From an uncultured bacterium (lineage in GTDB: Bacteria > Cyanobacteriota > Vampirovibrionia > Gastranaerophilales > Gastranaerophilaceae): a stretch of DNA of 36,905 bases. Position 1 is the stretch's first letter, and each line of letters opens with the position of its first letter. A program made the translations under genes and the position numbers. This document shows positions 129 through 30,711 of the stretch, piece by piece. Below the pieces are notes generated by a model. The model was not told the DNA's origin and made no database searches. It saw nothing but the letters and a program-made list of their open reading frames with translations. The stretch covers positions 1 through 36,905 of the forward strand of contig CASFTJ010000016.1 in NCBI GenBank assembly GCA_949297715.1. The letters are read 5' to 3'.

Positions 129-731
129 ATGACAAATTATGCATATTTAAGAGTTAGTACAGTCTTGCAAGATACCGATAAAAATAAACTTGAAATACTT
201 AAGTTTGCAAATTCTCACAAACTCGGAAATGTTGAATTTATTGAAGAACACATAACAAGTAAAAAACATTACAAACAAAGACTTATAGGTCAACTGCTTG
301 AAAATATTAAACAGGGTGATGTGTTAATTGTTCCTGAACTTTCAAGGCTTGCACGTTCTGTTTCGCAAATATTTGAAATTATTGATATGTCGCAACAGAA
401 AGGTTTTACGCTCTACTCTTTGAAAGAAAATTTTTGTACATCCGACAAAACTATAACTTCTATAGTAACTTCAACGGTTTTTGCTCTTGTTGCTCAAATA
501 GAAAGAGAATTAATAAGCCTTAGAACAAAAGAGGCTTTACACGCAAAACAATTAAACGGCTTAAAACTTGGTCGTCCGCAAGGCAAAGGTAAATCTAAAC
601 TTGATGAACATAAAGACACTATTATTAAATTACTTGAATGTGGTGTGCCGAAAACTGTTATCGCTAAACAGTTTAATACTTCTACTGTTAATCTGTATAA
701 ATTCCTAAAATATAATAATAAATGTGCTTAA
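129..731 (+). CDS. Small serine recombinase (resolvase/invertase family)
   Basis: This 200-residue protein has the resolvase/invertase layout. The N-terminal catalytic domain starts YAYLRVST with nucleophile Ser10 and Arg8. The PELSRLARS motif at 69-77 carries the active-site arginines. A long helix (QIERELISLRTKEAL, about 122-136) follows, then a GRPQG hinge near 148-152 and a short C-terminal helix-turn-helix with LLECGVPKTVIAKQF. The length suits resolvases and invertases; the large phage-type serine integrases are more than twice as long. The start follows a good AGGAGG-type site at about 117-121. It is transcribed away from the element's replication genes and sits beside paired dyad repeats (5-69). 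It probably resolves or inverts the element and may be its integration enzyme, although no tyrosine or large serine integrase is visible here. Confidence 0.93.
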   Translation: MTNYAYLRVSTVLQDTDKNKLEILKFANSHKLGNVEFIEEHITSKKHYKQRLIGQLLENIKQGDVLIVPELSRLARSVSQIFEIIDMSQQKGFTLYSLKENFCTSDKTITSIVTSTVFALVAQIERELISLRTKEALHAKQLNGLKLGRPQGKGKSKLDEHKDTIIKLLECGVPKTVIAKQFNTSTVNLYKFLKYNNKCA

Positions 732-1030
732 ATACAGTAAAATCAAGTTTAAAGTACATTTTATATTAATTTATATTCTTAAATATACAAATAATAGTTT
801 ACCTTTAATATATGTTTGCTATTAATTTAATACCTATAGTACAAAATTTATTACAATTTATTTTCTATAAAATTTCAAATTCAACTATCATTACTTAATT
901 TTTCACTTTATTTTATTGAAAATTTAAAAATTCAGTGAATTTTTAAATAAGTAAAATTTATCAGGGCGAAAATGTATTAATTTCGGTAATTAATAAATTC
1001 ATATTTTTTTCAATTAATATAAATTTTATT
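732..1030. other. AT-rich intergenic stretch with a large palindrome
   Basis: No credible gene is seen on either strand. The stretch is very AT-rich. It contains a near-perfect palindrome at 922-948, with 13-bp arms (ATTTAAAAATTCA and its complement) around a single G at 935. It lies between the convergent ends of the recombinase gene (+) and the replication genes (-). The palindrome could extrude as a cruciform, bind a protein, or weakly terminate transcription from either side; no T tract makes termination convincing. Confidence 0.5.
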
Positions 1031-1059
1031 TAAAAAGGAGGAAGTTTGATACTTCCTCC
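1031..1059 (-). terminator. Rho-independent terminator of the element's leftward genes
   Basis: There is a perfect 9-bp stem, GGAGGAAGT (1037-1045) with ACTTCCTCC (1051-1059), and a 5-nt loop. Read on the minus strand it is followed by a run of five T and more AT-rich sequence. It lies 8 nt beyond the stop codon of the ATPase gene at 1068. Confidence 0.9.
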
Positions 1060-1067
1060 GATTTAAC

Positions 1068-2747
1068 TTAAAAAGGTAATAAATTATCGTCATCTCTAGG
1101 ATACGGTTTCCCATCTTCTGATATATCTTCATTAATTATAACTTGCGGTTTTTCCGACATCCATGCTTCAATTTCAGGAAATGTTTCATAACTGAAGAAA
1201 TAACCTCTTTGATTACCCTTTGTGTAATAAGATGCATTTGAAATTATTACATTATAGTCTTTCAATATCTCTGCATATTGAGATGGTTTCATTGGTATTG
1301 AATTAGGGTAAAAACTTTTATAGCATTTTGCAAAAGCTGTATTTAAGTTTTCAGCATGTTTGTTAGTATTAATATGCAATCCCATTTGTCCTTTATGCCT
1401 TAATTCTTTATAATCTATGCTTGCTTTCAATTTAGGGAATTGCCCTTTTATTAATTCTCTTATAACTGCGATGAACTTTTCAGCTTCATTTTCTTGCGTT
1501 AATTCTTCATATTTTACCAAAAAATCATCAAGTTCTGTCTTAAACATCTCTGTATTAATTACATCTGGTAAATTTATAACTTTAAGCATTATGTTAAAAC
1601 CTGTCAGTGTAATCGCAAGGTTTACACGACTGCGTTCATCTTTAATTATACTTAACTGTTCATAATTGTTATTAATCATTGAAATAACATCTGATACAGG
1701 TATTGTTGTAACTATATGTGGTATAATTATACTTAAATATTGTGCATATTGATTATACCTTTTAGCTTCAACGACATTGAATGTACCTGCTTCCCAAAAC
1801 GTTTGCATTAGCCTGTTTGAAATTGACGGTTCTTTATTGATTGCTGAATTTGTATTAAAAATTAATGTGCTGTTAATAGCTGTCATTGCTTCTTCATCAC
1901 CGCTTCTTTTCATTCTTCGTCTCGGTGTTCTGTCATATACAGGCTTGATAATCAATTCATTAAGATTATTTCTTAACTTGTCGCCAATTTCATTAATCAG
2001 TGCGGGGATACAAGCATTTTGCTGTAAATTAAACAAGATGTTTAATGCAGTATCATTTCCACTTCTTATATGTGAATTATCAAATCCAAATAAACAAGCA
2101 ATTAGCCTTAATACATTACTTTTACCTGTCTTTGTTGCACCCTCAAGGTAACCAATCGGATATCCTTTAAATTTATTGAATATCAAGGTTGCAAATGGTG
2201 CCGTCAATGCTAACGAGATTACCATTATGGGATTTATTCGATAATTATAAGTTTTTGTTATATTATATAATAGTGTTATCAATACAGCGGAAGCTGTCGG
2301 AAGATTTGCTGTTATATTAAAATGGGCTTTTGCTTCATTTAAATATTCAGCAAATTTTTCGTCTTTTTCTATATCTGCGATATTACAAATTTTTGGTATT
2401 GCAGATTTTAATTCTTCTGCTAATGTTACCTTAATCCTATCTGCATTTTTACATCCGCAATATGGATATGTTCCTGTGCCCGTTACCCAAAAATGTTTAT
2501 TCTCCACAAAGTTATAACCGGGATTATAACTTAAGTAGCTTGTCTGTACAAATTTCGCATCGTCTATAAGCTGATTTATGTAATTTTTTACTTCATCCTT
2601 TTTAAAATCAGCTATATAATGTCCATACTTTTCTAGGAATTGGTCAAGTCTGTCAGGATTATTAACTTCTGAAATCCCTGTGATTGCATACTTTTCAGTT
2701 GTATGCGGGCTTTTTATCTTAATCCGAAATTTATATGTCTTTTTCAT
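1068..2747 (-). CDS. DUF927-like replication ATPase/helicase of mobile element
   Basis: This 559-residue protein has a C-terminal P-loop ATPase region resembling DUF927/D5-type primase-helicases of plasmids, phages and integrative elements. Visible motifs are a Walker A GATKTGKS at about 203-210, a Walker B-like ALINEIGD at 249-256, a sensor-like TLIFNTN at 294-300 and a candidate arginine finger in SNRLMQ. The N-terminal half is unrecognised apart from CGC near residue 98. The start is ATG at 2747: AGGAGG lies 6 nt upstream of it, whereas a TTG two codons earlier touches the AGGAGG directly. The gene overlaps the DUF3854 gene by 17 nt, so the two are probably translationally coupled and work together in element replication. 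The family assignment is by motif only. Confidence 0.75.
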   Translation of the reverse strand: MKKTYKFRIKIKSPHTTEKYAITGISEVNNPDRLDQFLEKYGHYIADFKKDEVKNYINQLIDDAKFVQTSYLSYNPGYNFVENKHFWVTGTGTYPYCGCKNADRIKVTLAEELKSAIPKICNIADIEKDEKFAEYLNEAKAHFNITANLPTASAVLITLLYNITKTYNYRINPIMVISLALTAPFATLIFNKFKGYPIGYLEGATKTGKSNVLRLIACLFGFDNSHIRSGNDTALNILFNLQQNACIPALINEIGDKLRNNLNELIIKPVYDRTPRRRMKRSGDEEAMTAINSTLIFNTNSAINKEPSISNRLMQTFWEAGTFNVVEAKRYNQYAQYLSIIIPHIVTTIPVSDVISMINNNYEQLSIIKDERSRVNLAITLTGFNIMLKVINLPDVINTEMFKTELDDFLVKYEELTQENEAEKFIAVIRELIKGQFPKLKASIDYKELRHKGQMGLHINTNKHAENLNTAFAKCYKSFYPNSIPMKPSQYAEILKDYNVIISNASYYTKGNQRGYFFSYETFPEIEAWMSEKPQVIINEDISEDGKPYPRDDDNLLPF

Positions 2748-3690
2748 TTTCAACCTCCTGTCTGATTGTTATTATCTTTTCCACAACTTCAAAAGCAAAA
2801 TTAGTTTTCTTTATTATGTATTTTTTCTCTTTTTGTCGATAATAAAGATAAACTTCTTTGCTAAACTCAAAATATTTTTCAGGTAAATATTGAAGTTCAT
2901 TTTTAAGTTTTTCGCCAAATTTTTCAATATCAACAAGCATAGCTTTTCCAATGTTCAATTTCCGCCCTTTTATAACATAAGAAATTAACGTTTCAGGAAG
3001 AGGCTTAGCCTTTTCAATTAGCTTGTCTAAATTGGCATTATCCTTTGCAAGATAATCGTCTAAGCCTAATTTTTGTCCTTTGTTATAGGGCAAATAAATA
3101 ATTTTGCATAAAATATCGTTGTTAAGCAGGTAGTCAGATAAAGCTATCAATGCCTGTCTTACCTGTGGCTTAAACATTAAATCATTGTCATAACAAAGAT
3201 AAACCTCGGTATGGCTTGCTTGTTTTAACATTTCAACCAATTTTTTGAAATTTTCATTAATGCCGTCTTCTGTGGATTTTGATTTCCAATTCCAACAACC
3301 TGAAACAGAAACAGTATTATATCCTTCTTGTACTGCTTTGAGAGCCTTTTTAATACCTTCTGTGATAATTACTTTATCTTTATTGATATCAAAATCTATC
3401 GGATAAAAAAGATCTGTTTGAGTTTCGTATGGTGTTTCATACTTAATAGGCTTTCCTTTATTATCACATCGTGGGTTGTCTGCCTTAAATATGTAATAGT
3501 TGCTGTTAGGATAAAACATTATCCAACCGGAGCCGCCTACTTGCGAACTTATTTTTAAGTTCTTTTCTTTTACAAACTGCTGAATATCTTCAACACTTTG
3601 AAAGTACCCTTGAGTAACATACCTGTTAATTGTATCATCACTGATACCGCTGGCATGAAACTCCTGCTGATGTTTAGCTTTAAGAAACAT
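2731..3690 (-). CDS. DUF3854/TOPRIM-domain replication protein (CyRepA1-like N-terminal part)
   Basis: This 319-residue protein has an N-terminal segment (ASGISDDTINRY) typical of DUF3854 proteins. A TOPRIM-like core follows, with VIITEGIKKAL holding the acidic Glu at about 111, VYLCYDNDLM with the DxD-like pair at about 168-170, and LGLDDYLAKD near 209. DUF3854 domains occur in primases and in cyanobacterial CyRepA1 plasmid replicases, where they accompany a helicase. Here the helicase-like part is the next gene, overlapping by 17 nt. I chose ATG 3690 because AAAGGAGA precedes it at proper spacing; an ATG 15 codons upstream has no such site and adds an atypical lysine-rich tail. The likely role is primase/initiator of the element's replication. 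Confidence 0.78.
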   Translation of the reverse strand: MFLKAKHQQEFHASGISDDTINRYVTQGYFQSVEDIQQFVKEKNLKISSQVGGSGWIMFYPNSNYYIFKADNPRCDNKGKPIKYETPYETQTDLFYPIDFDINKDKVIITEGIKKALKAVQEGYNTVSVSGCWNWKSKSTEDGINENFKKLVEMLKQASHTEVYLCYDNDLMFKPQVRQALIALSDYLLNNDILCKIIYLPYNKGQKLGLDDYLAKDNANLDKLIEKAKPLPETLISYVIKGRKLNIGKAMLVDIEKFGEKLKNELQYLPEKYFEFSKEVYLYYRQKEKKYIIKKTNFAFEVVEKIITIRQEVENEKDI

Positions 3691-3757
3691 GAGTGTCTCC
3701 TTTCTTTTTTTTCGTGCATTACAACTGAACCACAACCTGCACGATAATTGTGATTAC

Positions 3758-8402: not shown

Positions 8403-9509
8403 ATGAAAAAAATAGTCTTATTTTTGGCATTAATTTTAATTGCCCCTGAAGTTTTAGCGGCCCCAAGAGTGATAAGAACATCACATCCTATTCCTTATAA
8501 TAGAAGTGTAAACCCTTTTGTTAGACCATATTACAGACATTATGGAGGTGGATATAACAGATATTATAACCGTTATTACGGGAGCAATCTAATAAGACCG
8601 TATTATTACGGAAATACGTTCGGGCGGATTTATAACGGGAATTACTATCCTGTTTATCAAGATACATCGTATTATAGAGTTTCGGAGGTGCCCGAAGCAG
8701 AAGTTAGTAGCACCTGCTCATGTGAAGATGAAAAATCTATTCAAGATAGGATGTTTAAAAATATATTTACAATGCGCCGGGAATTGTATATGGATAGTGA
8801 AAAAAAAGAAAATCCCGATTTAACTTACAGAACCAAGAGTTTGTCAGAGGATGAAATTAATTCGCTAATGAAAGTTTCCGATACAAAAAGTGTTGTTAAG
8901 GATTCACGACTTTCGCTTGTTGAGAAAAATGTATATGGAAAATCTTTCGAGCATCAATCAATGAATTTGCGTCTTAACAGGCTTGAAAAGGAGATGTTTA
9001 ACAAGACTTTTCCGACAATGGATGAGTCAGAAAGAATAAATAATATTTTTGTGAACTATAATGCAAACACAATTTCGGATAAAGAACTTTCCAAAATAGA
9101 AAAAAGTATTTTCAATAGAACATACAATGACACACCTGTTTCCGAGAGAATTTCGCGAATAGAAGAAGAACTTTTCGGAACAATACAATCAGGAGATTTG
9201 GATAACAGGTTGAAGAAGGTCGAGTCAGCACTAATGGCGAAGCAACAAAAAGCTCAGAGTCCTCAAGTTTCGCAATATGATGCTTGTTATGGCGGTTACC
9301 TTCCGCAGACGGGATGGAGAAACACTTTAGGAAGAGCGAATCGCTTTTTTAACGGTTATCCGACGGGCATAACTCCTCCCATACCTTCAATGCCTCCGTT
9401 TGGCATGGGTGGAAGCGGAATTCAGCAGGGATGGACAGATAACTGGGGCGGATATGCTTACAATAATACTACCCGAGGCGGGGGTATGGGGGTGCATATT
9501 ATTGACTAA
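8403..9509 (+). CDS. Secreted Tyr-rich protein with ~23-residue leucine/RLE repeats
   Basis: This 368-residue protein has a clear Sec signal peptide (MKKIVLFLALILIAPEVLAA, cleavage near 20). A Tyr/Arg/Asn/Gly-rich segment follows at 31-91, then CSCED, and a repeat region at about 169-275. The repeat units resemble LSLVEKNVYGKSF....LRLNRLE and LSKIEKSIFNRTY....ERISRIE. The C-terminal tail (about 290-368) is rich in Gly, Pro, Asn and Trp. The same repeat occurs in the protein coded at 26078. Function is unknown; the predicted place is periplasm, surface or outside the cell. Translation is probably controlled by the leader hairpin at 8356-8400. Confidence 0.8.
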   Translation: MKKIVLFLALILIAPEVLAAPRVIRTSHPIPYNRSVNPFVRPYYRHYGGGYNRYYNRYYGSNLIRPYYYGNTFGRIYNGNYYPVYQDTSYYRVSEVPEAEVSSTCSCEDEKSIQDRMFKNIFTMRRELYMDSEKKENPDLTYRTKSLSEDEINSLMKVSDTKSVVKDSRLSLVEKNVYGKSFEHQSMNLRLNRLEKEMFNKTFPTMDESERINNIFVNYNANTISDKELSKIEKSIFNRTYNDTPVSERISRIEEELFGTIQSGDLDNRLKKVESALMAKQQKAQSPQVSQYDACYGGYLPQTGWRNTLGRANRFFNGYPTGITPPIPSMPPFGMGGSGIQQGWTDNWGGYAYNNTTRGGGMGVHIID

Positions 9510-9598: not shown

Positions 9599-10087
9599 AT
9601 GCCTTTTAGATACAGACTGCAAAAAGTACTTGATTTCAGAATAAGAAAGAAAGAAGAACAGTTACTTGTTGTTCAAAAAGCCCAGCAGGCGGTATTTATT
9701 GCAGAAGAAAACATCCGCAAGAATAACGAAGAAATTCGTGAAACACAGATAAATATGCGAAAAGCGGATCCGATGATGTATGATATTTACGATAAATACC
9801 TTATACATCTTTGGGAGAAGGCAGAGCAGCTTGAACAGATACGCGCAGAAGCTCAAAGAATATTAGACATAGAAAAAGCAAAACTTGTAAAGCTGGAGCA
9901 GGCGGTTAAAGTTCTTGAAAAACACAAAGAGAAGAGTCGAGAGGCATATCTTGAAGAAGAAAAGAAAGCAGAACTAAAAGGATATTCCGAACTCGGAGTT
10001 CAAAGATTTTTCAGGCAGTCGCAAGAGCGTCAGGAGGAAGAAGAATACGCAGAAATTCTAAGACAGCTTGAACAACTGGAGGGCTAA
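9599..10087 (+). CDS. fliJ: Flagellar export chaperone FliJ
   Basis: This 162-residue protein is almost entirely coiled coil. It starts MPFRYRLQKVLDFRIRKKEEQ, the usual FliJ opening, and is rich in Glu, Lys and Gln throughout. FliJ sits in the flagellar export gate with FliI and FliH and helps recycle substrate chaperones. The next gene, fliK, starts immediately after its stop. The ribosome site is weak: GAAAGTG (9586-9592) lies 6 nt from the ATG and can pair with CACTTTC at 9556-9562. Identification rests on the N-terminus, size and the neighbouring fliK-like gene. Confidence 0.85.
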   Translation: MPFRYRLQKVLDFRIRKKEEQLLVVQKAQQAVFIAEENIRKNNEEIRETQINMRKADPMMYDIYDKYLIHLWEKAEQLEQIRAEAQRILDIEKAKLVKLEQAVKVLEKHKEKSREAYLEEEKKAELKGYSELGVQRFFRQSQERQEEEEYAEILRQLEQLEG

Positions 10088-11029
10088 ATGAATATAGATA
10101 CAACCGTTTTATCGGCGGGAAGTGAGAAAAATAATTATATAGCAGCTTATCAGAATTCAAAGACTCAAAGCAATGAGGCTTTTAAGTTTCAACTTGATTC
10201 AATATCATCATCAAAGACAGAAACTTCAGACAAAGAAGTAGAAACGATAGATGGTGAAGCAGCGGAAGTTCAGGTAAAAGAGGACTTTTCTTCCGATGAT
10301 GATACTAAAGTTTCGTCTAAAGGAGAAGATAAAGCTCAAAAGACAGAAAACACAAAAGATAATCAGGTTAAGAACGAAACGCAGGATGAAAATTGCCAAA
10401 ATCAGTCAGGGCAAAATTCTCAAAACGGACAAAATCAGCAAAACCCTCAGTCTGCGATGTTGTCTGATGAAATTGCAGAGATGTTAAAGCTTAATTCCAA
10501 GTCAAACGGCGTAAATCAAATAAATAATACAACATTTAAAGCAGGTATAAGTGAAGATGTATTTAACAATTCTCCCAAAATTGACTATGCCTCAATTTCG
10601 ATGTCTGACGGCGATGCTCTGTTTTTTGCAAATTTAGTTACAAAAACGGATATGACAATGTCAAGTATTGCAGGAGAATTTCAAAAATCTTTAAATACCG
10701 CAAAGGTTCAAGAAGTTCAAAAAACAGCGAAGGTTTCAAGTGTTTTAATGGATGCTCTTGCAGACTCAATGAAAACAGGTAAAGCATTCAGAATAGATTT
10801 TGACAAAGATGTTTCTGTTGTAATGAGAGTAGATAAAGACGGCAACCTTAATGCCCATTTTATCCCTGGAGATAAAGCTGTAGAAGCGTATTTAAAGAAT
10901 AACATTTCTTATTTAAGAAGTCGCTTTGACGAAGAAAATCTTCCGTATAACGAACTTACATACAGCAAATACAAAGAACGTGAACAGGAATCCGAAAAAC
11001 GTAAAGATAAGGAGAATGATAATGAATGA
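10088..11029 (+). CDS. fliK: FliK-like flagellar hook-length control protein
   Basis: This 313-residue protein has a long low-complexity N-terminal part (1-130, rich in Ser, Lys, Asp, Gln and Asn), as expected of an export-dependent molecular ruler. A conserved C-terminal domain (about 215-295) follows, with FRIDFDKDVSVVMRVDKDG and YLKNNISYLRSRFDEENLPY, the pattern of the FliK C-terminal domain that switches export specificity through FlhB. Its ATG follows the fliJ stop directly, with GGAGG in the end of fliJ. The following gene overlaps its last 8 nt. The tail is highly charged (about 296-313, Glu/Lys-rich). The family call is good; the disordered half cannot be aligned by eye. Confidence 0.82.
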   Translation: MNIDTTVLSAGSEKNNYIAAYQNSKTQSNEAFKFQLDSISSSKTETSDKEVETIDGEAAEVQVKEDFSSDDDTKVSSKGEDKAQKTENTKDNQVKNETQDENCQNQSGQNSQNGQNQQNPQSAMLSDEIAEMLKLNSKSNGVNQINNTTFKAGISEDVFNNSPKIDYASISMSDGDALFFANLVTKTDMTMSSIAGEFQKSLNTAKVQEVQKTAKVSSVLMDALADSMKTGKAFRIDFDKDVSVVMRVDKDGNLNAHFIPGDKAVEAYLKNNISYLRSRFDEENLPYNELTYSKYKEREQESEKRKDKENDNE

Positions 11030-11858
11030 TTCTTACACCACGGCGTTGAACACTCAAAAATCAACCCAAAACTGGATGGACGTAATTGCTCATAACATGA
11101 CAAACGTCTATACACCGGGGTTTAGGGAAGAACAGGTAAACTTTAAGACCTTTTTAGGCGGAGCGATAGCTGACGGTTACGACAAGAAAACCGATCAGGG
11201 AAAATCAACTCCCGGTACATCAAAGGATAACTTGTTTTTGGAAGGTAAAGGCTTTTTCCTCACCAAAACTCCCGAAGGCAAGAGTGTTTACACCCGTCTT
11301 GGTGAATTTACATTTGACGGAGAAGGTGTTTATCGTGCAAAAAACGGAAATACCGTTCAAGGTTATATCTTGAATGATAAAGGCGAAATTATGCAAGGGA
11401 CAAAAGCCGTATCGCAGGATTTGTATGAACAAACCGCACTGAACGGAGGTGCTCTTGATGTTCCGACAACGAATATAAAACTTTGGATTGATCCGAGTAA
11501 CGGCAAGTTTTTAGGCAAATACGACGATTATGAGATTAAGGAAGACGGCACAATTTACGGAAAAGCCGACGGCGGCAAAAGATCCATCCCTTTATATAGA
11601 ATAACCACACGAAATTTTCATAACGCTGCAGCTTTGTACGAAATCAAGGAAGGCTATTTTATAGAAACAGAAGAATCCGGAAAACCTGTTCTTGGAATGG
11701 GTGAAATAAGATCAGGTCTGTTAGAAATGTCAAACGCTGATTTTAAAGGTAATATTTCGTATTTCCAAATGGCAAAATTGCAAATGGAAATTTCAAACAA
11801 GCTTATTTCAACAAACAAGGAGCTTTTAGAAGAAGCTTTGAGATTAGTCGGAAACTAA
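11022..11858 (+). CDS. Flagellar hook/basal-body rod protein (FlgE/FlgF/FlgG family)
   Basis: This 278-residue axial protein has the N-terminal rod signature, TALNTQKSTQNWMDVIAHNMTN with the following TPGFREEQVNF. The central part shows LEGKGFFLTKTPEG and YTRLGEFTFDGEGVY, and the C-terminus has the paired helix (GNISYFQMAKLQMEISNKLIS). The size fits FlgF/FlgG better than a full-length hook protein, but FlgE-like status cannot be excluded. I chose ATG 11022 because AAGGAG (11009-11014) lies 7 nt before it; an in-frame ATG two codons earlier is too close. It overlaps fliK by 8 nt, and the operon ends at the terminator at 11898. Confidence 0.9.
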   Translation: MNDSYTTALNTQKSTQNWMDVIAHNMTNVYTPGFREEQVNFKTFLGGAIADGYDKKTDQGKSTPGTSKDNLFLEGKGFFLTKTPEGKSVYTRLGEFTFDGEGVYRAKNGNTVQGYILNDKGEIMQGTKAVSQDLYEQTALNGGALDVPTTNIKLWIDPSNGKFLGKYDDYEIKEDGTIYGKADGGKRSIPLYRITTRNFHNAAALYEIKEGYFIETEESGKPVLGMGEIRSGLLEMSNADFKGNISYFQMAKLQMEISNKLISTNKELLEEALRLVGN

Positions 11859-11892: not shown

Positions 11893-12906
11893 TTACGAAG
11901 GAACTTTTTCGGGAAGTTCCTTTTTGTTTGCGTGTATTTTATCTAAAATTCTTATAATTTCATCTGAAAGATCAGATTTGTCTTTAATGTTAATTTTCAC
12001 AAGATTTGCAAATTCAGCCTTCTTAAATTCGTGAAGCCCTCTTGTTTTAAATATTTCTTCTAAAATTTTAACTCTTGGAACATCGGAATCAAGAAGTTTG
12101 ATATCAAGAAGCGAAATATTCTCAAAAGCGTAACCTAAAGTTCTTTCAACAAGTCCCTGCGGCAGAAGATCTTCAAATTCACCGCTTGCAAGAATATAAA
12201 CTTCATCAATATCTCTGAGTTTGTAATTGACTGCCCGAAGATTTTCTTCCGCATCTTTATCAAGCAGGACAAATATCGGCAGTTTAAGATATTCTGAAAG
12301 TTCATAATAAGTTTTTACAACTTGGTTTTTGCCTCCGGCAGAAATTATATGAACTCCGTTTTTGTCAAAATTAAACCCGTAAACATCCCCAAATGCGGGA
12401 AGAAGCGTTTCTTCCGTAATCCCTTCGCATATTATAACTTTTTCTACTGGAAAATGAAGCGAGTTTGTTTCTCTTGCTTTAGTTAGATTTTTTTCTGTGC
12501 CCAAAGCTTTAAGCCACTTCAGATTGTTAACTTCATTGTCAGAAATAAGCTTTGCTATTCCTTTGTAGTTAATTTTGTTTTTCAAAAGCTTTTGTGTTTG
12601 CGGATTTATTTTAAAAACAGAATTTTCATAATCGAAAAGTCTTTGATTTATGAGATAATCCCCAGCTTCATCGATGCCAAGCTCTGAAAGTGAAAAATTA
12701 ATAATCTGTTCAGCTAAATTTCTAACAATATCATAATCAAATTCGTCAAGTTCTTGTTTTTTGTATTTGGGATAGATAAGATTTCCCGTAATTATATCTT
12801 TATAAACTCTAAGGTATTTAATTTCCGTATGCTTAAATCTTGTAAGGCGTGATGCTGAAATAAGGATTTGTTCTTTAGTCAGCGGTTTAATTTTAATCTT
12901 TTCCAA
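11893..12906 (-). CDS. Stand-alone OLD-family TOPRIM protein without an ATPase domain
   Basis: This 337-residue protein ends in a TOPRIM domain like that of OLD-family nucleases. VEKVIICEGITEETLLPAFG (154-173) carries the acidic Glu161. IFVLLDKDAEEN carries the DxD pair at about 216 and 218. ILASGEFEDLLP (239-249) matches the C-terminal acidic motif. OLD proteins normally begin with an ABC-type ATPase, but there is no Walker A or B here; the N-terminal 150 residues are unrecognised and helical-looking. The start is TTG, with AGAGG five nt upstream and no better ATG. It may process nucleic acid in repair or defence. It lies convergent to the flagellar operon. Confidence 0.72.
   Translation of the reverse strand: MEKIKIKPLTKEQILISASRLTRFKHTEIKYLRVYKDIITGNLIYPKYKKQELDEFDYDIVRNLAEQIINFSLSELGIDEAGDYLINQRLFDYENSVFKINPQTQKLLKNKINYKGIAKLISDNEVNNLKWLKALGTEKNLTKARETNSLHFPVEKVIICEGITEETLLPAFGDVYGFNFDKNGVHIISAGGKNQVVKTYYELSEYLKLPIFVLLDKDAEENLRAVNYKLRDIDEVYILASGEFEDLLPQGLVERTLGYAFENISLLDIKLLDSDVPRVKILEEIFKTRGLHEFKKAEFANLVKINIKDKSDLSDEIIRILDKIHANKKELPEKVPS
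11898..11925 (+). terminator. Terminator of the fliJ-fliK-rod operon
   Basis: AAGGAACTT (11898-11906) and AAGTTCCTT (11914-11922) form a perfect 9-bp stem with a 7-nt loop, followed on the plus strand by TTT, part of a T run at 11921-11925. It lies inside the last codons of the opposing TOPRIM gene (ending at 11893), so one sequence serves as terminator on one strand and codes on the other. Confidence 0.85.
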
Positions 12907-26077: not shown

Positions 26078-27049
26078 ATGAAAAAACAAATTCTTACAAT
26101 CGGTATTATTTTGGGTTTGGCGTTAGGTTCTTCTGCTGTGTTTGCGGATACTAATACGCAAGTTATTGATAAGCTCGAAAACTCGCTTTACGGTTTTACT
26201 TACTCATCAGAAAATGAAACCTCAAGGCTTGATCGTATTGAAAATACGGTTTACGGAACAGTATCAACAAAGCCCGCAGCACAGAGGATTGCAAGGTTAA
26301 AGAAAGATATGGCGACGGATTTAATCGGACAGGAAATTGAGCCGACAACCGATACTTTTGCTGAAGATAATTTTGAAATTGAAGAAGCCCCTGTTGCCTC
26401 CTCAAATATTAATTATCCTGCGGTTGATGAGCTTGAAGAAATTGTTTTTAATAAAGTCACCCCGAAAGAAGATATTAAAAAAAGGCTTTCAAAATTAGAG
26501 ATGGAAACTTTTGGGAAAGAATATTCTAATGACGATTTGGCAACACGTACTGACAGGCTGAAGGCCGAAATTAAGCCAAAATCTCTTATGGATAATTACA
26601 TCGCGCAATCTTCAAATGATTTTTATGATGATTACGTGCCGCCGTTGGATTCCGATTACCATTTGGATAAGTATCAAAGTTATGACGGTTTTGGTTATGA
26701 CAGTTTTAATGCGCGCCAAAAAGCTATGCAGGATAGTTTTGACGCTCAAAGATACTCCCGCATGGCTGACAGCGGTAAAAATTACAGTCTTACGACGGTC
26801 GAAAAAAATGTTCTTAATAAAACCTACAAGAATGATTCGACTGAGAACCGACTTTCAAGATTAGAAAGTGCTATGTTCGGTACTAATTTTGCATCTGATG
26901 ATAATGAAACCAGAATTAATCGTATTTCAAGCGCTTACAAGGCTCAAAAATCCGCCGATAAATATGATACAAACAAGTTCTCGCAAAATATTACAACTGC
27001 CGTTCAAATTGGAACGTTACTCTTAATGGTTCTGGCATGTATTTTGTAG
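26078..27049 (+). CDS. Exported ~23-residue repeat protein with C-terminal membrane segment
   Basis: This 323-residue protein starts with a signal peptide (MKKQILTIGIILGLALGSSA, cleavage near 23). It carries at least three pairs of a ~23-residue repeat at about 30-73, 117-160 and 238-282. Examples are IDKLENSLYGFTY....SRLDRIE, VDELEEIVFNKV....KRLSKLE and LTTVEKNVLNKTY....NRLSRLE. An acidic spacer lies at 83-110 and a Tyr/Asp-rich spacer at 173-212. The last residues (about 306-323) are a hydrophobic segment that may anchor it. The same repeat builds the protein coded at 8403. AAGGAG precedes the ATG. I know no function for it. Confidence 0.8.
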   Translation: MKKQILTIGIILGLALGSSAVFADTNTQVIDKLENSLYGFTYSSENETSRLDRIENTVYGTVSTKPAAQRIARLKKDMATDLIGQEIEPTTDTFAEDNFEIEEAPVASSNINYPAVDELEEIVFNKVTPKEDIKKRLSKLEMETFGKEYSNDDLATRTDRLKAEIKPKSLMDNYIAQSSNDFYDDYVPPLDSDYHLDKYQSYDGFGYDSFNARQKAMQDSFDAQRYSRMADSGKNYSLTTVEKNVLNKTYKNDSTENRLSRLESAMFGTNFASDDNETRINRISSAYKAQKSADKYDTNKFSQNITTAVQIGTLLLMVLACIL

Positions 27050-27132: not shown

Positions 27133-30100
27133 TTATTGTGCCGTCTCTGTTGCTGGCTGAGCTTGTGAAGACGTTTTTTTGAATAAGTTCATAATCTCAT
27201 CAACACTGTCTTTTACGTTTTGAACCTGATTTTTTATATCTTCCTTTGCTTGCTGTGATTGTTGTTTTATGTCTGAGGCGGTATTTTTCAGGCTTTCTTT
27301 AGTTTGAGTTTGAATCTCTTTAACATTTTCAATATTTGTTTTAATGTTTTGTTTTAAATTTTCGGTGCTTGTTTGAACCTGCTCTTTAAGACTTGTTGAT
27401 TCAATTGCAGACATATCAGGATTGTTAAGCCATTTGAACGATTTAACCGCACTTGTGCTTTCAATTCCGCCGTTAAATTCTACTTTAAAGTCTTTATAAA
27501 CAGTGTCCCCGCCTGTAAGTGACGGGATATTTTCAGTTTTTTCTCCTGCAGGGTTCGTTGTAACTGTTTTTATAATACTTGAGGTTAGAGTGCCGAATTT
27601 AGGAATATATGAGGTAAGCTTATCCACAGAAAGCTCTCCTAATGGCCCTAATACTGCAACAACATCAGAACTTAAACGACCTAATATAATAAGGTTTGCT
27701 GTTCCGTTTAGAATATTGTATTTACCCGTTATATAGTATGCCGTATTCTCGCCCGCAGAGGTAATTGAACTTATATTTGCCCAGCCGTCGTTAAATGTTA
27801 TATTGCCTTTTATGTAGTCAAAATTGGCACTTTGTTTAATTACATCAACGCTTGATAATGCCGCTACTGCAGCTTTTAAAATGATATTTGACATAATGTT
27901 ATTTGCGGATAAAAGCATTTCAATACGGCCGATTCCTGCAAATGCTCCTTCTTTTATGTTAAACGAAACTTGACCTTTTAGATTTTTTATTAATTCAACA
28001 TCTGTAGCACCTGAGGTTGTAACATTTGCTGTAAAACCTAAAGTTCCTGTTAATGCGTTTTTAATTCCAGCCGCACCATTGATTGCAGAAGCTGCATCCA
28101 ATCCTTCACCGGTCAGGTCAACTCCTATTTTTCCGTTCATTATGTTATATGAAACATTACCTTTTATATTGCCTTTAAAGGTTGAGCCGGTAATATTTGA
28201 AAGATACAAAATTCCGTTGTTCAAATTGTAAGTGAAATCAGCAGCAAGGTTTTCTGCGACAATTCCGCCTGATGTTAACTTGGCTAAAGTCCCCTTTCCG
28301 TTTGCAACTGCTCCTGATAAGTTCATATCAAGATTTTCAAGTTTTACAAGCATATCAGGAAGTTCTATAAGCGGAATAGAAACATTCCCTTTTAAGGTCG
28401 GATTTAGAGGCGTTCCGCCGATTAACAAATCGCCTTTTGTTTTTATTAAAGAATTTTTGCCCATCATTGGTATCGGCATTGAAATATATGAGGGGATAGA
28501 AAAATCTATTGCCATATTTTGCGTTTTTGAAAGATTGCTTATACTTCCTGTCGCTAAAGCTATATTGTTACCATTTACGGCAAGCCCGATTTTGTCTATT
28601 TTCAAAGTGTCATTTGCAAATTTTAACTCTGTATTTAAAGTTGCAGGTTTGTTTTTCATTAAATCAATGTCTAAAATTGACAGGTAATTGTCAGGTGTAA
28701 TATTAAGCGAAGCATTGATTAATTGCTGTTTAAGATTTCCGGTAATTGAAACTTTTAAAGGAAGTTTACCTTTTGCGCTCATATCCTTTCTAAAATCTGC
28801 CGGAATTATATTATATAAATCTGATGCAACAAGATTTCCGTTTGCATTAATATTTATACTTACGTCTTCGGGATCCGCATAATCATTTATGCTTCCGGTG
28901 ATATCAATTCTTGAGTTGTCAAGCATTATGTAAGCATTATCAATATTAAGGTCTTTTTCATTAAGAGTTACCTCACTTTGAGGTATTTTAACCGTCGCAA
29001 ATGGTGAGATTATATCCGCTGAATTGATATTCAAAAGACCTTCATAAGTACCGTCGTTTGTGGTTATATCAAAAATCGCTTTGTTTAATTTAAGTGTTGT
29101 GTCTGAAGCTATGTTTTTGATGTTAACATTGTCGGCACTTAGGCTTACAGAAGGTATTGGAGAGGTTAATTTACCTTCTAAAATTGCTTCAGCGGATAAA
29201 GTTCCTGAGTTAAAATTGTTTTCTTTTAAAAGTGAAAATTGCCCTGCTGCTGCAATAAGTGCTTTTATAAGCAATTTGTCTGCGGTAAGATGCAAATCAG
29301 TTTCGGCTTTATCTGATATCGTTCCGTAAAATTTTAAAGGCTGATTAAATACACTAAATGATACATCTTTAAAATTTAGGTTGTTATTTGAAAGATCAAT
29401 ATCTGCTTTTATTTTGTCTATTAAAATATTATAAAGTCCATAAGAAATACTCGCTTCCGGAATTTTTAAGTAGCCTGTGGATTTAATTTTTTTCTTATCC
29501 CCTGTTATTGATAAATCTGCATCAATGTTTCCTGTCCCGCTTAAGGTATTTAAATCTTTTATCCCAAAGGATTTTGCAATACTGTCAATTAGATTTATAA
29601 TATTGTTTATTCCTGCGTTTGAGATTAAACGCAAGTCAATTTCAGGATTTTTTCCTGTTTTGATTTCTCCGTTTAATGAGGTTATTTCTTGTAAAGATTT
29701 GGAGGTGTAGAAGGTTGAATTGAGGGTGATGCTTTTTGACTTAAACTCCATATTAAAAGAGCTTTCGGGAAGTGTTTGACCGTCTACTGCGACTGTTAAT
29801 CCGTCAATTGAGGTTTTGCCAAATATATTAATATCATCAAAAGTCCCTTCTGTTTTTATATCAGCCGTTAAGTTTGCGGTAAGTTTGTTTTTGTGAATTC
29901 CGTCGAAAATATCAATGATGTTTATTGCAGGAGTTGTTTGTGCTGTCTTTGTTGTCACATTGAAGTTGCTTTCAGTCTGCTCAGGCTGTGGTGCAAATAC
30001 TACATCATTTATGTCTTGCTGTGGCATTACGTAGTTTTTGATTTTGGCATCATAAGAAAAATGTTTTGAACCGTCCAGATAAAGTGAGCCGTTTGATGTG

Positions 30101-30711
30101 ATTTTTACCTTTTTGTTGAAGATAAAATCCGTTAATTTAAATTCAGGCGCATCAAAATAGTATTTTTTATTTGTTTTTTTAGATAAAAATTCAACATTAA
30201 ACTTTTTTAAATAAATGTTAGGAAGTTTGTTTGATAATTTAAACCCAAATGGAAGCCCGGGGGCTGAGGCTGATTCCTGCTGCTCTTGAGCCGTTATCGG
30301 CATAGCTTTTAAGTAGTCTTCCAAAAGAAAATGTCCGTCTTTTTCGACTTCTAAAAAGATTTTTATATTTTCTGCTGAAATTTTATCAAGTTCTATTCTT
30401 CTGATTAACAAAGGGATAAGGGAAAGTTTTATCTCAAAATCATCAAGAGATGCTATATTTGCACCCTTTTGAGGAGAAAGTTCTGCGTGGGATAATTTTA
30501 TACCTGCTGTAAGTTTCGGGGTTGTCACAAGTTTTAAGTCATTTAATATGACCTTAAATCCGCTCAGGTGCTCTATTTGTTCTGTAATTTCTGTGTTATG
30601 TGATTTTATGTAGGAATTTACAAAAAACGGAAATATAAGAAATGCAATATACAATACTGCCAGTATGCCGATTACGGTAAATCCCGCCGTTTTAATAGCT
30701 TTTTTTATCAT
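27133..30711 (-). CDS. AsmA-like (DUF748/TamB-related) envelope protein
   Basis: This 1192-residue protein has a short cytoplasmic start, one membrane anchor at about 10-32 (TAGFTVIGILAVLYIAFLIF), then a long periplasmic region. An N-terminal AsmA-type domain (about 33-150, with FKVILNDLKLVTTPKLTAGIKL) leads into repeated beta-strand blocks typical of bridge-like lipid-transfer proteins, and an AsmA C-terminal-type block lies at about 850-1040. The last about 110 residues form a Gln/Lys-rich coiled coil (VQTSTENLKQNIKTNIENVK onward) and a Ser/Ala/Thr tail. A role in phospholipid transport or outer-membrane upkeep is inferred from the family. GAGAGGGA precedes the ATG and an extended -10 (TGC TAAAAT) lies at 30762 to 30754. 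Confidence 0.8.
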   Translation of the reverse strand: MIKKAIKTAGFTVIGILAVLYIAFLIFPFFVNSYIKSHNTEITEQIEHLSGFKVILNDLKLVTTPKLTAGIKLSHAELSPQKGANIASLDDFEIKLSLIPLLIRRIELDKISAENIKIFLEVEKDGHFLLEDYLKAMPITAQEQQESASAPGLPFGFKLSNKLPNIYLKKFNVEFLSKKTNKKYYFDAPEFKLTDFIFNKKVKITSNGSLYLDGSKHFSYDAKIKNYVMPQQDINDVVFAPQPEQTESNFNVTTKTAQTTPAINIIDIFDGIHKNKLTANLTADIKTEGTFDDINIFGKTSIDGLTVAVDGQTLPESSFNMEFKSKSITLNSTFYTSKSLQEITSLNGEIKTGKNPEIDLRLISNAGINNIINLIDSIAKSFGIKDLNTLSGTGNIDADLSITGDKKKIKSTGYLKIPEASISYGLYNILIDKIKADIDLSNNNLNFKDVSFSVFNQPLKFYGTISDKAETDLHLTADKLLIKALIAAAGQFSLLKENNFNSGTLSAEAILEGKLTSPIPSVSLSADNVNIKNIASDTTLKLNKAIFDITTNDGTYEGLLNINSADIISPFATVKIPQSEVTLNEKDLNIDNAYIMLDNSRIDITGSINDYADPEDVSININANGNLVASDLYNIIPADFRKDMSAKGKLPLKVSITGNLKQQLINASLNITPDNYLSILDIDLMKNKPATLNTELKFANDTLKIDKIGLAVNGNNIALATGSISNLSKTQNMAIDFSIPSYISMPIPMMGKNSLIKTKGDLLIGGTPLNPTLKGNVSIPLIELPDMLVKLENLDMNLSGAVANGKGTLAKLTSGGIVAENLAADFTYNLNNGILYLSNITGSTFKGNIKGNVSYNIMNGKIGVDLTGEGLDAASAINGAAGIKNALTGTLGFTANVTTSGATDVELIKNLKGQVSFNIKEGAFAGIGRIEMLLSANNIMSNIILKAAVAALSSVDVIKQSANFDYIKGNITFNDGWANISSITSAGENTAYYITGKYNILNGTANLIILGRLSSDVVAVLGPLGELSVDKLTSYIPKFGTLTSSIIKTVTTNPAGEKTENIPSLTGGDTVYKDFKVEFNGGIESTSAVKSFKWLNNPDMSAIESTSLKEQVQTSTENLKQNIKTNIENVKEIQTQTKESLKNTASDIKQQSQQAKEDIKNQVQNVKDSVDEIMNLFKKTSSQAQPATETAQ

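Follow-up and report, generated by a model that had tools for sequence, protein, structure and literature searches.

A three-helix module with four conserved Glu and Arg residues in exported proteins of one bacterial class

The window, a stretch of 36,905 nucleotides of DNA from an uncultured bacterium, carries two distant genes coding for exported proteins, P0001 and P0002, which differ from each other outside their signals and a repeated element that they share. This raises the question of what the shared element is, how far it extends among bacteria and what it may do.

Two exported proteins with a common element

P0001 (8403..9509, forward strand) is an exported protein of 368 amino acids, as deduced from the translation and the alignment of its orthologues, with, in order, a signal peptide, a Tyr/Asn/Arg-rich N-terminal part, two modules and a conserved Gly/Pro-rich C-terminal tail. 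The modules were located by profile match and AlphaFold at 8898..9059 and 9075..9236 of the forward strand, each with three helices. The invariant residues among orthologues are E174, R190, E195 and R211 in the first module and E233, R249, E254 and R269 in the second one. The C-terminal tail beyond the modules (9390-9509) is also kept in the orthologues, with TGxTPPI ... GxGVxILD at the extreme C-terminus, and reads TGxTPPI ... GMGVHIID in P0001 itself; it could possibly serve in sorting or in binding.

P0002 (26078..27049, forward strand, 323 amino acids, from translation and AlphaFold) is an exported protein that starts with a signal peptide, continues with three modules set apart by disordered spacers and finishes with a C-terminal hydrophobic helix (ITTAVQIGTLLLMVLACIL). 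Its modules, assigned by profile match and AlphaFold, are located at 26153..26314, 26411..26575 and 26777..26941 of the forward strand. The hydrophobic helix (26990-27049) reaches the last residue of the protein, without positive charge behind it, and may be an anchor in either the inner or the outer membrane. Both N-terminal signals are of Sec type with AxA-like ends read from the sequence, VLA|AP in P0001 and VFA|DT in P0002, in agreement with the first-pass annotation, which had described two exported proteins with otherwise different sequences.

That annotation had also claimed that the two proteins share a repeat, and the comparison of P0001 with P0002 by BLASTP gave an E-value of 4e-10. 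Profile-profile alignment of the two orthologue families, which had been named as a test of the claim, succeeded with a probability of 99.8% and an E-value of 7e-30. In the same way, an independent profile, for which 75 modules were taken from families of the class other than the window's own, picked exactly P0001 and P0002 among all open reading frames of the window (full-sequence E-values of 1e-27 and 7e-45, respectively) and gave zero matches against 500 shuffled P0001 sequences. The two and three modules found by profile correspond to the two repeat pairs reported earlier for P0001 and the at least three for P0002. A profile search of the 2.02 Mb host genome at E < 0.4 retrieved these five copies in P0001 and P0002 and none elsewhere.

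The module, its signature and its predicted fold

The sequence alignment of the five window copies to one another showed four invariant residues in the order E-R-E-R. The repeat unit is a module of about 54 residues with three helices, consisting of a half-unit, a full unit and a half-unit, that is, of two overlapping helix-loop-helix units of 21-23 residues each. The unit of about 23 residues described at first thus stands as a period inside the module but not as a free repeat, since each supposed pair is one module. Helix 1 exhibits the pattern hxxhExxhF and is followed by an 8-residue loop (G/N-K-T-Y-like), helix 2 the pattern RhxxhExxhFG followed by the second loop, and helix 3 the pattern RhxxL. 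The Glu is present and the Arg absent (position 4) in helix 1, and the Arg is present and the Glu absent (position 50) in helix 3, a distribution that would follow from a pairing of every Glu with the Arg one helix further on.

The resulting signature, E-x15-18-R-h-x-x-h-E-x14-17-R, counted with a slightly wider pattern, was found in 279 of the 294 modules that were collected from 122 proteins, a set that contains close orthologues and does not amount to 294 independent cases, compared to 0.1% of shuffled modules. Its four positions are conserved at 100% (E), 100% (R), 98% (E) and 99% (R), and the E-to-R spacing is nearly always 15, 16 or 18 and very rarely 17. Beyond the E/R and hydrophobic positions the module surface is variable, and no conserved residues of catalytic type were found in the module. 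The proteins contain one to four modules.

AlphaFold modelling of the two-module part of P0001 (33 aligned sequences) predicted six helices, at model residues 7-17, 26-38, 47-62, 65-76, 85-97 and 105-123, with a mean pLDDT of 84 and a pTM of 0.52. These helices, interrupted by loops, are 11-16 residues long, except for the final one of module 2 with 19. The invariant Glu lies about four residues ahead of the end of one helix and the Arg about three residues past the start of the next one, and the pairs E9-R25 and E30-R45 (module numbering) probably form salt bridges over the loop. The modules have pLDDT values of about 80-92 in P0001 and 73-89 in P0002, where the spacers are mostly below 50 and the overall pTM is low (0.24); helix 3 of P0002 module 3 is predicted to be continuous with the C-terminal hydrophobic helix (model H276-322). 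Of the stacked helical hairpins that had been suggested for an AlphaFold check, the helices were recovered but the stacking array was not, the models showing closed modules with disordered spacers. The 21-23-residue period would also suit a true 23-residue solenoid stacking into a long rod; since no module of the collected proteins goes beyond 2.5 units, and with the disordered linkers and low pTM of P0002, we give this explanation hardly any credence.

The three-helix module is an undescribed domain family. No match over the curated cut-off or with a convincing E-value was obtained in Pfam (2025 copy), NCBIfam or PHROGs, the Pfam scan covering 46 and 66 modules plus both proteins, and literature searches returned no description of the repeat, as the first-pass annotation had supposed in recognising no named family. 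Matches to Trimer_CC, TolA_bind_tri, GpsB, lipoate ligase, DUF1465 and TssO were all under cut-off and were rejected. Structural searches gave no nameable relative (best Foldseek E-values of 2.3 and 3.8, VIA-align Z of at most 3.2), although one may still exist. Profile matches in the PDB were weak, with a best E-value of 0.0066, and most of them paired helix 2 with a short coiled coil: the GpsB C-terminus (E 0.0066-0.009), CNGA3, coronin-1A, A27 and KCNQ1, several of which are parallel trimers.

The R-h-x-x-h-E motif is present in helix 2 of nearly all modules, and RhxxhE is a motif of short parallel trimeric coiled coils and of trimerisation (PMC5940361). Helix 2 (R-L-x-R-L-E) is in this respect like the trimers of coronin-1A type (Trimer_CC) and TolA_bind_tri. 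These have a continuous helix of several heptads, whereas helix 2 of the module comprises about 13 residues, is ended by Gly/Asn and is flanked by two further helices that lack the Arg (helix 1) or the Glu (helix 3). Together with the coiled-coil matches, the motif is a lead toward self-association and not a proof, because some 13 residues of helix do not suffice to make a coiled coil stable by themselves. The C-terminal helix of GpsB (5an5; NF010725) also contains a stretch, RLSNLEKHVFG, near the helix-2 consensus RLsRLEkkvFG, with a match of 19.2 bits against a cut-off of 91 over 17-24 residues. GpsB is a cytosolic, membrane-associated protein with an unrelated N-terminal domain, unlike the exported module proteins.

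Spread, architectures and putative role in the envelope

The module is almost universal in the class and, as far as tested, restricted to it within the phylum. The 46-module profile at E 1e-5 matched 191 of 194 class genomes and, in a sample of the phylum, 136 of 292 genomes, all from the class. The class-wide 66-module profile matched 183 class genomes; among 203 genomes of the phylum outside the class it gave nine matches at E 0.001-0.05, where about ten are predicted by chance. A GTDB-wide scan with P0002 retrieved near relatives only, all Gastranaerophilales MAGs, the closest named records being Candidatus Gastranaerophilales MAGs, and tblastn of P0002 found no plasmid or phage spread. The class is presumably Vampirovibrionia, the non-photosynthetic relatives of cyanobacteria. 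It includes common gut bacteria and also has predatory members; an exported domain present throughout it offers a direct handle on how distinct the envelope of these cyanobacterial relatives is, and the module lets hundreds of 'hypothetical proteins' gain annotation together.

Exported proteins were found in every module architecture examined. A simple hydrophobicity count gave a signal-like N-terminus in 116 of 122 module proteins, two of the other six being truncated or mis-started frames. In other families of the class, the module is combined with tails that are rich in Gly and Met (L080, L121) or C-terminal and hydrophobic (L111, L117, L137), with TPR (L109), with TPR and PDZ (L091), with CAP (L116 over the Pfam cut-off, L112 slightly under) and, by a weak match, with a matrixin-like sequence containing HxxxH (L129). 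Also in these other families, one-module exported proteins carry a divergent CAP-like domain (L112, L114, L116, L125, L139), and some of their genes are near an SLH gene (L211-L213); this proximity, seen in family f12, was dropped as evidence since a RibD-like gene intervenes.

Our preferred reading, tentative and held at a little under an even chance, is that the module is a non-catalytic, extracytoplasmic protein-protein contact module of the cell envelope, probably homotypic. The Glu near the end of one helix would bridge the loop to the Arg that opens the following helix within its first turn, and modules would join one another into homotypic oligomers of the envelope. In this model P0002 is the membrane-tethered member, with a cleaved signal, three modules on flexible spacers and the C-terminal hydrophobic helix; P0001 would be a soluble or wall/outer-membrane-associated member with its Tyr/Gly-rich tail; and in other proteins the module would take their TPR, PDZ, CAP or protease-like domains to that location too. 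Bacteria of this group are inferred to possess two membranes (PMC3787301), so that P0001 and P0002 are expected to work on the cell surface, on a membrane or within the periplasm. The putative role as a periplasmic or surface scaffold that the first-pass annotation had suggested is plausible. The module, its invariants, its class-wide spread and its exported architectures are shown by the data, whereas the salt bridges, self-association, P0001-P0002 binding and the exact compartment are inferences of this model. Among exported helical OM-wall connectors, Omp-alpha resembles P0002 in its C-terminal hydrophobic helix, and the coiled coil of SlpA has a conserved R-E bridge with residues five apart, comparable to what is proposed for the module (PMC9388160); P0001 and P0002 differ from these connectors by having no SLH, no long coiled coil, and small separate modules. 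A further-reaching and rather unlikely version would make the module the common link in a network, particular to the class, of the periplasm or outer envelope, in which homotypic contacts gather P0002-type, P0001-type and enzyme-bearing (CAP, TPR-PDZ) proteins in one scaffold defining the class envelope.

The multi-copy, modular design in exported proteins with varied partners (CAP, TPR, PDZ, protease-like) is shared with the envelope-targeting SLH and LysM modules, and confinement to one class points to an envelope ligand peculiar to that class. The module could then target its proteins to an envelope polymer other than protein, be it peptidoglycan, LPS or a secondary wall polymer, an explanation that we regard as possible but on balance improbable: there is no sequence match to SLH or LysM, the conserved residues are other ones, and the invariants look structural, a helix core with E/R pairs, unlike a polar/aromatic binding pocket. 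SLH was found in 55 of 60 class genomes, and the module as a substitute for SLH was rejected since both coexist. Alternatively, the beads-on-a-string prediction, with its disordered linkers, low overall pTM and variable surface, would fit a module that binds no ligand itself and acts as a structural spacer, or as a rigid bead along a flexible chain. Conservation of the E/R residues in 98-100% of modules class-wide exceeds what a plain spacer needs, and two-module proteins with little else occur (L035, L036), which makes this a distinctly unlikely explanation compared with a contact module.

Gene neighbourhood

FliJ-, FliK- and hook-type flagellar genes (9599-11858) directly follow P0001 on the same strand. 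A P0001 orthologue directly precedes fliJ-fliK-hook-type genes at nine examined places (the window, L190 and L199-L205), which would suit a flagellum-assembly protein, but does not adjoin them in L191-L198 and L206-L209. FlhA was detected in 140 of 194 class genomes, fewer than the module, and no genome of family f8, which has the most modules (7-24 per genome), gave an FlhA match. A flagellar function of P0001 is accordingly very unlikely, and flagellar assembly as a general role was rejected because the linkage exists only in some genera and modules are plentiful where FlhA was not detected. Neither flagella nor SLH absence therefore accounts for the family.

In several genera, though not in others, P0002 orthologues have nifU-nifS on one side and an AsmA-type gene on the other. 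P0001 and P0002 do not share an operon, and some genomes have a diverged P0001 or none, so that the two proteins need not form a dedicated pair. Beside P0002, a gene at 27133-30711 codes for an AsmA/YhdP-like protein of 1192 amino acids; such proteins shift lipids between membranes in other bacteria. Among the flagellar genes, an OLD-like TOPRIM gene (11893-12906) keeps its position in L175, L190, L201, L204 and L205. The left end of the window (129-3735) carries a resolvase-like gene and two more genes that resemble those of mobile elements.
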